Notes under the pieces: generated by a model | Database searches by the model: none | What the model saw: the letters and a program-made list of their open reading frames with translations, nothing else | What the model was told of the DNA's origin: nothing | Shown here: positions 55,292 through 59,987 of the stretch, in pieces | How the letters are laid out: each line of letters opens with the position of its first letter | Position numbering within the stretch: position 1 is the first letter of the stretch | DNA from: Providencia rettgeri | GTDB taxonomy: Bacteria > Pseudomonadota > Gammaproteobacteria > Enterobacterales > Enterobacteriaceae | Length of the DNA stretch: 64,000 nt | Direction of reading: 5' to 3' | NCBI RefSeq assembly: GCF_001874625.1 | Contig: NZ_CP017671.1 | Coordinates: forward strand, 2,542,001-2,606,000 | Translations under genes and position numbers: made by a program

Positions 55292-56518
55292 ATGAACAAC
55301 ATTAACCACACTGACTTGATTTTACAGCGTTGTAGCCATTGCAACCAAAAAATCCTCGCTCCGCGATTTAGCTTACGACAAGTCGTTATTTGCCCTCGTT
55401 GTTCTAGTCAACTCAATGATGGCCGGTCATGGTCAATCAAGCGGTTATCCATATTGTCTATCACATTATTGATGCTAGCACCGATCGCTTTTTTACAACC
55501 ACTAATTTCTATTCATCTGCTGGGAAGTCAAATTAATGCCAATGTAATAGAAGGTGTTCGCTTAATTAATCATCAAGGTGACCCGCTCACAGCAAGTATT
55601 GTGGCTTTTTGTGCGATAGCTGCTCCACTATTATTGCCAATATTAATTTTAATGTTACTTATTGGTCAGCGAATAAATTTAAACCTTCGCCCTATTTTAC
55701 TGGTTCTGAAACACATCAAAGAATGGGTTATGTTAGATGTTTACTTAATCGCTCTCGTTATAGCGGCAATTAAAATGCAAGATTACGCCAGCGTGTTTAT
55801 AGGTAATGGTTTAGTTGCTTTTATCACGATGGCTATTTTAAGTTTATTGATCCTCATCCACATGAATTTAGACGAACTATGGCGTCGGTTTTACCCTATT
55901 GATGACCAAGGGGAACAACCACATGCGTTGGCCTGCACCGCTTGCCACTTTACAGGGCCTTCTAACGCCCAAGGGAAGTGTCAGCGCTGTCATCGGCCAT
56001 TACAATCTCGCAACCCCTATAGTTTACAAAAAACATGGGCTGCGCTAATTGCCGCCATGGTGTTATTGTTTCCCGCTAACCTGCTACCCATTTCAGTTTT
56101 TTATCTGAATGGGCAGCGTTTGGAGGACACAATTTATTCTGGTGTTGTAGCCTTAATTGACTCAGGTAACTGGCCTATTGCCATTATTGTCTTCATTGCC
56201 AGCATATTAGTGCCCTTCATCAAGATTATCATCATGATATTATTACTATTTTCTATACAGTTAAAAAGCAATACCGACCCTGTTCTTCGTATGAAACTAC
56301 TAAAATTTGTTTCATGGATAGGCCGCTGGTCAATGTTAGATTTATTCGTCATTGCCTTAATGATGACATTAGTTAACCGTGATCAATTAATGTCTTTTAC
56401 TATGGGCCCTGCCGCATTTTACTTTGGTACAGCAGTTATTCTAACAATCATGGCTGTTGAATGGTTAGATAGCCGCTTAATATGGGATTCATATGGAAAA
56501 TCAAAACCTGCAAAATGA
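55292..56518 (+). CDS. letA: LetA (YebS), PqiA-family membrane partner of LetB
   Basis: Integral inner-membrane protein of the LetAB lipid-transport system. 408 aa (E. coli 427). Two zinc-ribbon-like cytoplasmic clusters, each ahead of a membrane module: CSHC..CPRC at about 14-36 and CTAC..CQRC near 210-235. Two repeats of four helices each (LSILSITLLMLAPIAFLQPLISIHLLGSQ and AALIAAMVLLFPANLLPISVF). It overlaps letB by 26 bp, so the two are translationally coupled. Confidence 0.95.
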   Translation: MNNINHTDLILQRCSHCNQKILAPRFSLRQVVICPRCSSQLNDGRSWSIKRLSILSITLLMLAPIAFLQPLISIHLLGSQINANVIEGVRLINHQGDPLTASIVAFCAIAAPLLLPILILMLLIGQRINLNLRPILLVLKHIKEWVMLDVYLIALVIAAIKMQDYASVFIGNGLVAFITMAILSLLILIHMNLDELWRRFYPIDDQGEQPHALACTACHFTGPSNAQGKCQRCHRPLQSRNPYSLQKTWAALIAAMVLLFPANLLPISVFYLNGQRLEDTIYSGVVALIDSGNWPIAIIVFIASILVPFIKIIIMILLLFSIQLKSNTDPVLRMKLLKFVSWIGRWSMLDLFVIALMMTLVNRDQLMSFTMGPAAFYFGTAVILTIMAVEWLDSRLIWDSYGKSKPAK

Positions 56519-58832
56519 GCCTTCTGAAGAAGCTACAGAAGCCACACTACGCAAACGAGGGCGTATCTCCCCTTTCTGGTTATTACCGCTGGTAGCGATT
56601 TTTATAGCTGGTTGGCTTCTTTTCCAACATTGGGTTGAGCGTGGAACTGATATTACGATTGAGTTCTCTTCTGCCCCAGGTGTCGTCGCAAATCGAACAC
56701 CTATTCGCTACCAAGGCGTTGAGGTTGGATTAGTTCAATCAATTGCTATTAGCAAAAATATGAAATCCATTATTGTTACTGCCAGTGTTAACAAAGACAT
56801 GCGCTCTGCGTTAACTTCAGGCACAAAATTTTGGTTAGTTACACCTAAAGCCTCATTGGCGGGCGTTTCCGGCCTTGATGCATTGGTTGGCGGTAACTAT
56901 ATTGGAATGCTGCCAAGCACTGGGACAGAGCAATTCTCGTTTGTGGCACAAGACACGCCACCACAACTAAATATTGACGAAGGTGAACTTCTAATCCACT
57001 TAACCGCACCTGATTTAGGTTCATTAAACGAAAACTCACCCATTTATTACCGAAAAGTCCCCGTGGGTTATATCTCGGATTATACCATTTTACCGGATAA
57101 CCAAGGGGTATCTATATCTGCGGTGGTCAAAAAACACTATGCCAAACTCGTTCGTAAAGACAGCCAATTTTGGAATGTATCTGGCTTACAAGGTAGTTTT
57201 GACCTTAAATCCGGTGCTAATATCAAAATGGAAAGCCTTTCTGCTGTCATAAATGGCGCTATTACTTTTGACTCACCGCAAGGCAGCCCCCAAGCGGAAG
57301 AAGGCCAACGTTTTGTGTTACAATCTAGCCGTGCCGTTGTCAAAGCTGCTGAACAAGAAGGTAAATCCCCTTTAACTCTTGCCTTATGGGCCAATGACAC
57401 CTATGGCGTAAGCAAAGGACAACCTGTTGTTTATAAAGGTATTCAAATCGGTGAGGTGTTACAACGTCACCTATCCGCCGATAATGTCAATTTTAAAATA
57501 GCCATATATGATGAGTTTAAGCACCTCATTCGTGAAGACAGTAAATTTGTCGCCAATAGCCGTGTTGATGTCCAATTGGGGCTTGGTGGACTACAGTTCC
57601 AAGGCGCGACACCGCAAGAATGGTTAGATGGCGGCATACACTTAATTGCGGGGCAAAGCCAAGGGAAATTACCAGAGAAATTCCCTTTATACCGCAGTGA
57701 TGACAATGCGAAAGCCGGTATTTTAGGGGCATCTCCACCAACTACAATTACTCTTAATACAGCGACATTACCAGATATACAAGCCGGGTCGGTTGTACTT
57801 TATCGTCAATTTGCAGTAGGCAAAATTACCACCATTAAACCCACTACATCCGGTTTTTCCATTGATGTATATATTTCAAGTGAATATCGGCATTTACTGA
57901 CTGATAACAGTGTTTTTTGGGCTGAAGGTGGAGCAAAAGTTCAGTTAAATAGTAATGGTTTAACAGTCCAAGCTGCCCCATTGAGCCGTGCGATCAGTGG
58001 AGCAATAAGCTTTGACAACATAGGTAATGGCACAGCGAATACTGCACGCCAACACATGCTTTACCCTAATGAAACATCTGCTAAGGCTATTGGTAGTGTA
58101 GTTACCTTAACAACATTTGATGCCTCCAAACTTTCTGAAGGCATGCCTATCCGTTATTTAGGCATAAACATTGGTCAGATAGAGTCATTAAAACTGTCCT
58201 CTGATAAAAGAGAGGTACAAGCGAGGGCTATTCTCTATCCAGAGTATGTCAGCACATTCACAAAACTAGGGAGCCGCTTTGCTGTTGTAACCCCTGAGTT
58301 ATCACCCGCGGGCTTAAATAACCTTGACAGTATATTACAACCTTATATTAGTGCAGAGCCTGGACGTAGTAATAAAAACCGTTATCAATTTGAACTACAA
58401 GCTGCCAATATAACTGACTCTCGTTATTTAGATGGTTTAACCATTTACCTTGATGCCACTGATGTTGGTTCTGTTCAGGTGGGTACGCCGATTTTATTTA
58501 GAGGGCTGGAAGTCGGTGTGGTGACAGGCTTATATTTGGGAGAGCTTTCCGACCGCGTTTATGTTGCCACACGTATTGGCAAGGAGTATCAATATTTAGT
58601 ACGTGATAACACTGAATTTTGGCAATCATCCGGCTTTAATTTCTCCTTTGGTTTGGCTGGTGGAGTTATGAAAAGCGGTACATTCAAGCAGTTTGTCCGA
58701 GGTGGTATCACTCTCGCCACCCCGCCAACAGTGCCTTTAGCGCCGAAAGCTAAGCCGGAACAGCATTTCATTCTAAAATTAGAAGCCCCTAGTGATTACT
58801 TAAACTGGGGTACATCAATACCTAAAAAATAA
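56493..58832 (+). CDS. letB: LetB (YebT) MCE tunnel protein, six MCE domains
   Basis: Forms stacked hexameric MCE rings bridging the inner and outer membranes for lipid transport. 779 aa, against about 877 in E. coli. One N-terminal membrane helix at about 28-48, then six MCE units starting near residues 50, 165, 295, 420, 540 and 655 (GVEVG, VPVG, IQIG, FAVG, INIG and LEVG turns). Compared from memory with E. coli, units 1 and 2 and units 4 to 7 align and the third unit is absent: the unit-2 end (NGAITFDSP) is followed directly by the unit-4 type (TLALWANDTYGVSKGQPV). No frameshift is seen at the junction. Confidence 0.95.
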   Translation: MENQNLQNEPSEEATEATLRKRGRISPFWLLPLVAIFIAGWLLFQHWVERGTDITIEFSSAPGVVANRTPIRYQGVEVGLVQSIAISKNMKSIIVTASVNKDMRSALTSGTKFWLVTPKASLAGVSGLDALVGGNYIGMLPSTGTEQFSFVAQDTPPQLNIDEGELLIHLTAPDLGSLNENSPIYYRKVPVGYISDYTILPDNQGVSISAVVKKHYAKLVRKDSQFWNVSGLQGSFDLKSGANIKMESLSAVINGAITFDSPQGSPQAEEGQRFVLQSSRAVVKAAEQEGKSPLTLALWANDTYGVSKGQPVVYKGIQIGEVLQRHLSADNVNFKIAIYDEFKHLIREDSKFVANSRVDVQLGLGGLQFQGATPQEWLDGGIHLIAGQSQGKLPEKFPLYRSDDNAKAGILGASPPTTITLNTATLPDIQAGSVVLYRQFAVGKITTIKPTTSGFSIDVYISSEYRHLLTDNSVFWAEGGAKVQLNSNGLTVQAAPLSRAISGAISFDNIGNGTANTARQHMLYPNETSAKAIGSVVTLTTFDASKLSEGMPIRYLGINIGQIESLKLSSDKREVQARAILYPEYVSTFTKLGSRFAVVTPELSPAGLNNLDSILQPYISAEPGRSNKNRYQFELQAANITDSRYLDGLTIYLDATDVGSVQVGTPILFRGLEVGVVTGLYLGELSDRVYVATRIGKEYQYLVRDNTEFWQSSGFNFSFGLAGGVMKSGTFKQFVRGGITLATPPTVPLAPKAKPEQHFILKLEAPSDYLNWGTSIPKK

Positions 58833-58978: not shown

Positions 58979-59212
58979 ATGTGTTTTGTGAAATTGAAAA
59001 TATCTTCCTATGAAATTAATGATGCGGTTATGGCTTCACATAAAAGTGATACGGTAAGTATCCCTTGTGATTCTGATACCGATTTCTGTATGCAATTAGA
59101 TGGTTGGGACGAACATACCAGCATCCCTGCCACCTTAGATGAAAAACCTGTTTTACTCTATCGCCATCACTATGATAAAGAAAATCATCATTGGGTCATG
59201 AAATTAGCATAG
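58979..59212 (+). CDS. yebV: YebV, DUF1480 protein
   Basis: 77 residues, acidic, unknown function. ISSYEINDAV, CDSDTDFCMQLDGWDEHTSIPA and the HHWVMKLA end match E. coli YebV. GAGGTG lies before the ATG. Downstream of letB as in E. coli. It sits directly ahead of a short ORF and the SdsR/RyeA locus. Confidence 0.88.
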   Translation: MCFVKLKISSYEINDAVMASHKSDTVSIPCDSDTDFCMQLDGWDEHTSIPATLDEKPVLLYRHHYDKENHHWVMKLA

Positions 59213-59222
59213 TAGGTTAATC

Positions 59223-59381
59223 ATGTTATACAGCCTATTAGCTCGGGTATATAAATGGGTAAGAACAAATAGAAAGGTGATTACTAGTGTGTTAACAAAC
59301 AAACCGATAGGCAAAAAAAGAGGCCTGGTAGATTCCGATTACCGGGCCTTGGGAAATGGCTCTGGCAGAGCCGTGCGCTAA
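59223..59381 (+). CDS. possible 52-residue basic peptide antisense to SdsR
   Basis: ATG at 59223 with AGGT 5-6 nt upstream, 10 bp after the yebV stop. The predicted peptide begins MLYSLLARVYKWVRTNRKVI, is strongly basic, and its last 20 residues are encoded by the strand opposite SdsR. No homology is recognised. The 3' half is constrained by the sRNA, so the frame could be fortuitous; only the Shine-Dalgarno and position support it. Confidence 0.25.
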   Translation: MLYSLLARVYKWVRTNRKVITSVLTNKPIGKKRGLVDSDYRALGNGSGRAVR

Positions 59382-59639: not shown

Positions 59640-59987
59640 TTACTTACTGGGGCATAATTTTTCAGCGGCCTCTTTTAATGGCTGTATTCTTTCTTTAACA
59701 CTTTTAGTTGTTTCAATAGGTGCTAATAAAACATCAATCGGCTGAGCCTTAATCTCTTTTTTCTCCATTAATTCCGTCGCTATCTCATTTAATGGATATT
59801 GCATCAATGTTGCAGGGTTAATGACGACCAATGCACCATTGTTACGGCACTCAAGCATCACCTCCTCACGAATAAACGGCCAGTCCTGACCAAATTGTTT
59901 TTTACTGACTGTTGCCAATGGTGCGGAGTATGCTGCACTCATTGTTCCAACAAGTAATAATGAGCAAATAATGAGTTTATATTTCAT
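59640..59987 (-). CDS. yebY: YebY, DUF2511 periplasmic protein
   Basis: 115 residues. Signal peptide (MKYKLIICSLLLVGTMSAA..SAPL), then FGQDWPFIREEVMLECRNNGALVVINPATLMQYPLNEIA, matching E. coli YebY. Two cysteines (LEC, KLC) could form a disulfide. AAGG precedes the ATG at 59987; the frame opens 36 nt further upstream. It follows copD by 65 bp in the order copC-copD-yebY, so a role in copper stress is plausible by context only. Confidence 0.9.
   Translation of the reverse strand: MKYKLIICSLLLVGTMSAAYSAPLATVSKKQFGQDWPFIREEVMLECRNNGALVVINPATLMQYPLNEIATELMEKKEIKAQPIDVLLAPIETTKSVKERIQPLKEAAEKLCPSK

Follow-up and report, generated by a model that had tools for sequence, protein, structure and literature searches.

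A six-ring LetB of Providencia and Proteus that lacks the counterpart of Escherichia coli ring 3

The letB gene of Providencia rettgeri was identified in a 64,000-nucleotide stretch of contig NZ_CP017671.1 (positions 2,542,001 to 2,606,000; this whole stretch is referred to as the window), where it occupies positions 56493 to 58832 of the forward strand, starts with ATG, and encodes 779 residues. LetB forms a tube that probably carries lipids between the two membranes of the cell, and the product here is a LetB orthologue of the recorded six-domain class. It contains six MCE units, each of which corresponds to one ring of E. coli LetB and all of which stand in order, and the ring without a counterpart is ring 3. 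We consider it probable that this is a working LetB from which exactly ring 3 was lost, through an in-frame deletion no later than the last ancestor shared by Proteus and Providencia, and that the resulting shorter tube of six rings is tolerated.

A preliminary description of the same DNA had proposed that the protein holds six MCE units in its 779 residues, that E. coli units 1, 2, and 4 to 7 all have counterparts, and that the absent unit is E. coli MCE3; all three proposals were borne out. The Pfam model MlaD/MCE (PF02470) matched six stretches of the protein (228.5 bits). When the protein was aligned with E. coli LetB (9n8w; 877 residues) by phmmer, residues 10 to 276 paired with E. coli residues 5 to 270 and residues 293 to 778 paired with E. 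coli residues 392 to 877, such that E. coli residues 271 to 391, the third MCE unit, were skipped; E. coli residues 278 to 379 drew just a weak cross-match from unit 1 of the window protein (27 bits). Ring-specific hidden Markov models (HMMs), trained on 77 seven-ring LetBs, assigned the six units, all on the forward strand, as MCE1 (residues 51 to 161, positions 56643 to 56975; 164.4 bits), MCE2 (residues 164 to 276, positions 56982 to 57320; 142.2 bits), MCE4 (residues 294 to 404, positions 57372 to 57704; 131.9 bits), MCE5 (residues 417 to 513, positions 57741 to 58031; 152.4 bits), MCE6 (residues 534 to 646, positions 58092 to 58430; 171.7 bits), and MCE7 (residues 647 to 749, positions 58431 to 58739; 160.2 bits). 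The second-best ring HMM for any unit reached at most 54 bits. An AlphaFold2 model of the monomer also contained six MCE-like strand/helix repeats by our reading of its secondary structure (mean predicted local distance difference test score [pLDDT], 66.9; predicted template modeling score [pTM], 0.31), and because the pTM is low, the model supports a count of six units but is silent on how they stack. The top Foldseek matches of this model were to LetB (9n8w, 9n8x, and 6v0c). Two outcomes would have overturned the description, and neither appeared: a seventh unit was seen neither by Pfam nor by the ring HMMs nor in the monomer model, and phmmer and the ring HMMs both identified the absent unit as E. 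coli MCE3.

We also considered whether a divergent seventh unit might be hidden in LetB or elsewhere in the genome, and this possibility was rejected. A whole-genome scan with PF02470 returned ten places, of which letB accounts for six, a PqiB-like frame of 555 residues for three, and a frame of 166 residues for the last (the genome's own PqiB is located at G000:C1:1538449-1540080). Since the remaining MCE units sit in the PqiB-like and short frames, none is left over, and the scan found no orphan seventh MCE unit in the genome. Compensation by a C-terminal extension was likewise rejected, in that unit 7 stops 30 residues from the end of the protein, versus 29 in E. coli.

The site of the absent ring is marked, by spacing and by comparisons of nonsynonymous divergence (dN), by a linker at residues 277 to 293 (positions 57321 to 57371, forward strand); this is the short Gln/Glu/Lys linker that had been noticed from the sequence to join unit 2 to a unit-4-like module. 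The six-ring proteins retain the terminal part of the unit 2 region (FVL in most) and reach unit 4 by way of a 17-residue linker. The distance from the FDSP motif of unit 2 to the first strand of MCE4 was 31 residues in 31 of 31 ring-3-less proteins versus 136 to 137 residues in 77 of 77 seven-ring proteins, counts that overstate the number of distinct strains because some loci duplicate the genomes of others. These proteins belong to a ring-HMM set of 113 LetBs plus an outgroup, in which the fragments L113, L152, and L156 were not scored as ring losses, and the ring order was 1-2-4-5-6-7 in all 31. The sequence of the linker evolves fast (dN of 0.39 to 0.82, versus 0.067 to 0.169 for the whole gene, in six comparisons), while its length is constant. 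By eye, in the alignment, the Proteus linker GKALYGDDGLILSL resembles the E. coli 3-to-4 linker EKALLHEPDVLTLTL, a likeness suggesting that one unit and one linker were excised in frame. The idea that a helical collar in the linker substitutes for the ring was unsupported, as the AlphaFold2 model placed just a five-residue helix at residues 281 to 285, with pLDDT below 50 over residues 280 to 291.

The absence of ring 3 is shared across two genera. A scan of genome contigs gave 377 loci, the best 80 of which, all named, were kept; these comprised 21 loci without ring 3 (10 from Providencia and 11 from Proteus), 58 seven-ring loci, and one fragment, and the structure alignment took in 36 of the 80 besides the window. 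A full-length six-ring LetB was present in all of the 24 Providencia genomes but G015, in which there is none; the genome of the window is one of the 23. Since all 11 named Proteus loci agree with these 23 genomes, an artefact of assembly or strain was rejected, and the sharing with other Providencia and with Proteus that the preliminary description had raised was upheld. In a wider sample of 392 genomes of the GTDB family, LetB was found in 231 (E value up to 1e-80); ring 3 was absent in 10 of these, belonging to Providencia, Proteus, and one further genus, and present in 221. This tally compares the lists of genomes obtained with a LetB query and with a ring 3 query. The ring 3 query matched 229 of the 231 LetB-positive genomes, leaving G000 and G150 without a match, and eight of the 229 (four Providencia and four Proteus) were matched only at 4.7e-13 to 8.8e-10, where the weakest match among the other 221 genomes was 1.9e-18. 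The eight weak matches were read as cross-matches to the unit class that rings 1, 3, and 6 share (described below), because the proteins concerned lack ring 3; that absence was confirmed by the ring HMMs for the four Proteus genomes and G150 and, for the four Providencia genomes, by aligning the entire proteins with the six-ring query. LetB places were listed for 150 of the 231 matching genomes, 10 of them six-ring and 140 with frames of at least 878 residues.

To place the change, two quick trees were made from rows of our choosing, with the Shimodaira-Hasegawa-like approximate likelihood ratio test (SH-aLRT) as the sole measure of support. The tree of Prc, ProQ, and MsrC (58 rows) placed 21 rows, those of Proteus, Providencia, g128, g138, g13, g48, and g93, in a single clade (support, 100). 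Judged by tree position and genome size, g128 may be Moellerella, g138 Photorhabdus, g13 Xenorhabdus, g48 Arsenophonus, and g93 Morganella, and g70 and g147 may be symbionts of aphids such as Regiella and Fukatsuia. Within this clade, the six-ring form occurs in Proteus, Providencia, and g128, and letAB was not found in g138, g13, g48, g93, or G015. The tree of LetB (45 rows taken from the 113 LetBs and the outgroup, with the columns of rings 3 and 6 excluded) grouped the ring-3-less proteins in one clade (SH-aLRT, 90) and required the ring state to change twice, once by the loss of ring 3 and once by a loss of ring 6. The outgroup from the same order (L173, from G662; 42% identity to E. coli LetB) carries rings 1-2-3-4-5-6-7, and since it has all seven, the six-ring state is a loss. 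Two deep gammaproteobacterial LetBs (L203 and L204) show the same succession of unit classes, their third unit belonging to the ring 1/3/6 class. The loss of ring 3 is old and preceded the split of Proteus and Providencia; because the locus is lost in g138 and g13, the event can be dated just to before that split.

The identity of the protein as LetB was also supported by its surroundings and its relatives. Upstream lies letA (positions 55292 to 56518, forward strand; 408 residues), which encodes the inner-membrane partner of the YebS/PqiA family, overlaps letB by 26 bases, and scored 464.9 bits against NCBIfam model TIGR00155 (cut-off, 260.35). The two genes form an operon near msrC, proQ, and prc, and the order prc-proQ-msrC-letA-letB is that of E. 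coli, yebS-yebT included. A hydrophobic helix at residues 27 to 49 (positions 56571 to 56639, forward strand), predicted from the AlphaFold2 model and from the alignment with the E. coli N terminus, is probably a single N-terminal transmembrane anchor in the inner membrane. The protein groups with LetB and not with PqiB, and its top PDB matches, by sequence and by fold, are LetB. Type IV MCE architecture is defined by seven MCE domains (PMC5561183; articles given here by PMC number are cited from excerpts), and by that strict count the window protein, with six, falls outside it; its layout, six MCE domains preceded by a hydrophobic stretch at the N terminus, is that of the MAM6 class. All three NCBIfam models reported for positions 56493 to 58829 scored under their cut-offs, the highest score being that of the PqiB model (420.9 bits, under a cut-off of 525), and automatic naming of six-ring LetBs may therefore be unreliable. 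On the 3' side, rsmF, which follows yebT in E. coli, does not follow letB here: there is no rsmF-sized frame before position 59640, and the interval holds two short open frames instead, one of 77 codons (positions 58979 to 59212) and one of 52 codons (positions 59223 to 59381), both on the forward strand.

How might a six-ring LetB work? Seven-ring LetB is about 20 nm long (PMC12612896), which by our arithmetic gives about 17 nm for six rings. In the reading that we favor, ring 3 would have been deleted in frame before Proteus and Providencia diverged, and rings 1-2-4-5-6-7 would stack as a hexamer anchored in the inner membrane beside LetA. The assembled hexamer would be one ring shorter, so that phospholipid would pass through a tube reduced by roughly 3 nm of 20 nm. 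The parts that appear indispensable would be kept, namely, the membrane-proximal ring 1 and all rings with a long loop (rings 2, 4, 5, and 7), hence also the distal ring 7, and the lost ring would be one of the two internal rings with a short loop (rings 3 and 6). The distal end may contact the outer membrane at points where the two membranes lie closer together, or it may act without a fixed contact; this is the least certain step. The shortening would be tolerated since LetB does not have to act as a rigid ruler of full periplasmic width, which we take to be the likeliest explanation. Several points weigh against this account. Work by Isom that appeared in Cell in 2020 reportedly argued that the length of LetB matters in E. 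coli. The AlphaFold2 monomer, with its pTM of 0.31, does not inform stacking across the junction of rings 2 and 4, and the lengths of envelope proteins considered below are indirect proxies for the width of the periplasm. Moreover, by our count on the 58-row tree, the whole letAB locus was lost at least four separate times in the clade, and such outright losses in sister genera imply that the system is dispensable there.

These losses also favor the alternative that the six-ring LetB is a decaying, partly functional tunnel in a clade that is discarding letAB. In eight of eight LetB-negative loci of the clade that were examined, no match to letA or letB was found between msrC and yebY, and msrC adjoins yebY (genomes G160, G380, G348, G115, G227, G362, G015, and G035; the loci are L213, that of the deep-branching Providencia G015, and L166, L167, L168, L161, L169, L171, and L214). 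No letAB was found in the three loci examined of g93, the genus that may be Morganella. However, the gene is full-length in the 23 Providencia genomes and 11 Proteus loci noted above, it has persisted across the approximately 60% identity that separates Providencia from Proteus LetB, and the spacing at the scar is invariant. Amino acid change is strongly constrained as well: in six of six comparisons of Providencia letB, covering six of the ten named loci, the proportion of nonsynonymous differences (pN) was 0.064 to 0.151 versus a proportion of synonymous differences (pS) of 0.70 to 0.76. Because synonymous divergence (dS) was saturated, exceeding 2 in two comparisons and being undefined in four, pN versus pS was used alone. 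We therefore regard decay as unlikely, and a working LetB remains the preferred interpretation.

If instead the periplasm of Proteus and Providencia were narrower, loss of a ring would keep the tube exactly spanning it. The spread of channel lengths among relatives of the Brucella MCE protein MpcD is wide and, according to its authors, possibly reflects periplasm width (PMC12436622). Proxies for envelope width were compared between seven six-ring and eight seven-ring genomes. Lpp is the usual setter of the width of the periplasm, and in the six-ring genomes it was not shorter (76 to 77 codons over 75 to 76 matched residues). Open frames of TamB spanned 1259 to 1300 in six-ring versus 1259 to 1289 in seven-ring genomes, those of PqiB spanned 555 to 559 versus 553 to 567, and those of YhdP spanned 1263 to 1285 in six of the seven six-ring genomes versus 1277 to 1303; the YhdP of the seventh, Proteus G222 (G222:C14:46121-49913), is split over two frames by an internal stop. 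Since all these proteins bar that one are of normal length, there is no hint of a narrower periplasm, and we consider this explanation improbable. Less credible still is a role as a MAM6-type surface adhesin, with host-cell binding set by the number of MCE units. Proteins of six (MAM6) or seven (MAM7) MCE domains have been described as adhesins, with six as the minimum for efficient binding (PMC4346855), but the E. coli orthologue was localized to the inner membrane (PMC5561183), and the window protein has a predicted N-terminal anchor helix and an overlapping letA partner gene. Least credible of all is an ancestral six-ring state with ring 3 gained by other enterobacteria, for although ring 3 is less conserved (0.663; see below) than rings 1, 2, 5, 6, and 7, it is present in the same-order outgroup L173 and in 221 of 231 LetB-positive family genomes, and L203 and L204 carry a unit of its class in third place.

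A second natural loss was found in the same survey. By the ring HMMs, the LetBs of G092 and G169 lack ring 6 and retain ring 3, in frames of 787 and 784 residues (L150:1364-3706 in G092 and L151:1273-3609 in G169, both on the reverse strand). These two genomes, of two genera, group together next to Yersinia on both trees, and their loss of ring 6 is independent of the loss of ring 3. Neither genome gave a YhdP match, nor a PqiB match outside the LetB frame; with the lipid-transport gene set so reduced, the argument from envelope protein lengths is not transferable to them. In G213 (L152), from the same genus as G092, LetB is truncated after ring 3. LetB also appears fragmented or interrupted by stops in L156 (G126), G051 (a genome 49% complete), G338, G394, and G184, and such broken LetBs in several other genera indicate that loss of letB by decay may recur in the family.

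Both natural losses hit an internal ring with a short loop. Cross-scores of the ring HMMs divided the rings into two classes, separating rings 1, 3, and 6 from rings 2, 4, 5, and 7. The loop segment was measured from the strand that leads into the loop up to a fixed glycine (in ring 6, a proline) behind the next helix. In 77 of 77 seven-ring proteins, it was 20 residues long in rings 1 and 6, 19 residues long in ring 3, and 27 residues long in rings 2, 4, 5, and 7; we presume that this segment holds the pore-lining loop. In the ring-3-less proteins, the segment of ring 2 was 28 residues long (31 of 31) versus the 27 of the seven-ring proteins. The suggestion that ring 3 was lost as the least conserved ring was rejected: among 42 seven-ring proteins, mean pairwise identity was 0.663 for ring 3 and lowest, at 0.604, for ring 4, and ring 6, which was lost elsewhere, is well conserved (0.744). 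By our arithmetic, the chance that two losses at random over seven rings fall on rings 3 and 6 is about 0.08, a weak statistic, and because there are just two events, the rule by class is offered as a hypothesis. Tentatively, and with less than even confidence, we propose that the internal short-loop rings 3 and 6 may be dispensable throttle or spacer modules that were dropped independently, in which case LetB would not be a ruler of fixed length and the conduit would not have to contact both membranes to work across a periplasm of full width; removal of short-loop rings might then raise lipid flux. A frame of 1055 residues in a distant gammaproteobacterial relative (L205, from G425) contains eight MCE units, the extra one apparently of the long-loop class.

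These observations bear on whether MCE tunnels need to bridge the periplasm physically and on the role of each ring. The two losses amount to independent natural experiments in ring number, each lacking a different ring of one class, and they provide natural counterparts of E. coli ring-deletion constructs in culturable bacteria, in which the question of spanning is directly testable. The number of rings among LetB and its relatives is evolvable, being six or seven in LetB and eight in a single distant relative. In E. coli, deletion of ring 3 or ring 6 is said (by Vieni, in JMB in 2022) to have raised resistance to membrane-perturbing agents, the tube without ring 6 being shorter and otherwise intact; if so, evolution has removed those same two rings.

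Compared with known systems, the six-domain class itself is already in print as MAM6. Earlier work is cited for "six or seven" MCE domains, and variants other than three or seven are described as much less common (PMC5561183). A search of open-licence literature found no text naming the missing ring, its lineages, or the ring 6 parallel, a search that does not establish priority; we believe it to be new that the lost ring is ring 3, that the loss belongs to the lineage of Proteus and Providencia, and that ring 6 was lost in parallel. Like MAM6 and MAM7, proteins of six and seven MCE domains from Gram-negative bacteria, the window protein has a recorded natural number of units (PMC4346855 and PMC5561183), but the excerpts of those accounts do not name the absent unit, Proteus, or Providencia, and the adhesin role is disputed. 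PqiB resembles it in combining a tandem of MCE units with a partner of the PqiA family and differs in having three MCE units and a helical needle (PMC10897342). A laboratory six-ring LetB with a solved structure, E. coli LetB delta-Ring6 (PDB 7see and 7sef, by entry titles), is similar in ring number and counts in favor of the six-ring model, whereas here it is ring 3 that is gone, and the natural loss of ring 6 is that of G092 and G169. The closest likeness is to E. coli LetB itself (YebT; 6v0c and 9n8w), with which the window protein shares gene order, the N-terminal anchor, rings 1, 2, and 4 to 7, and 55% identity over aligned columns, and from which it differs by the absence of ring 3 (E. 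coli residues 271 to 391), one additional residue in the loop segment of ring 2, and a length of 779 versus 877 residues.

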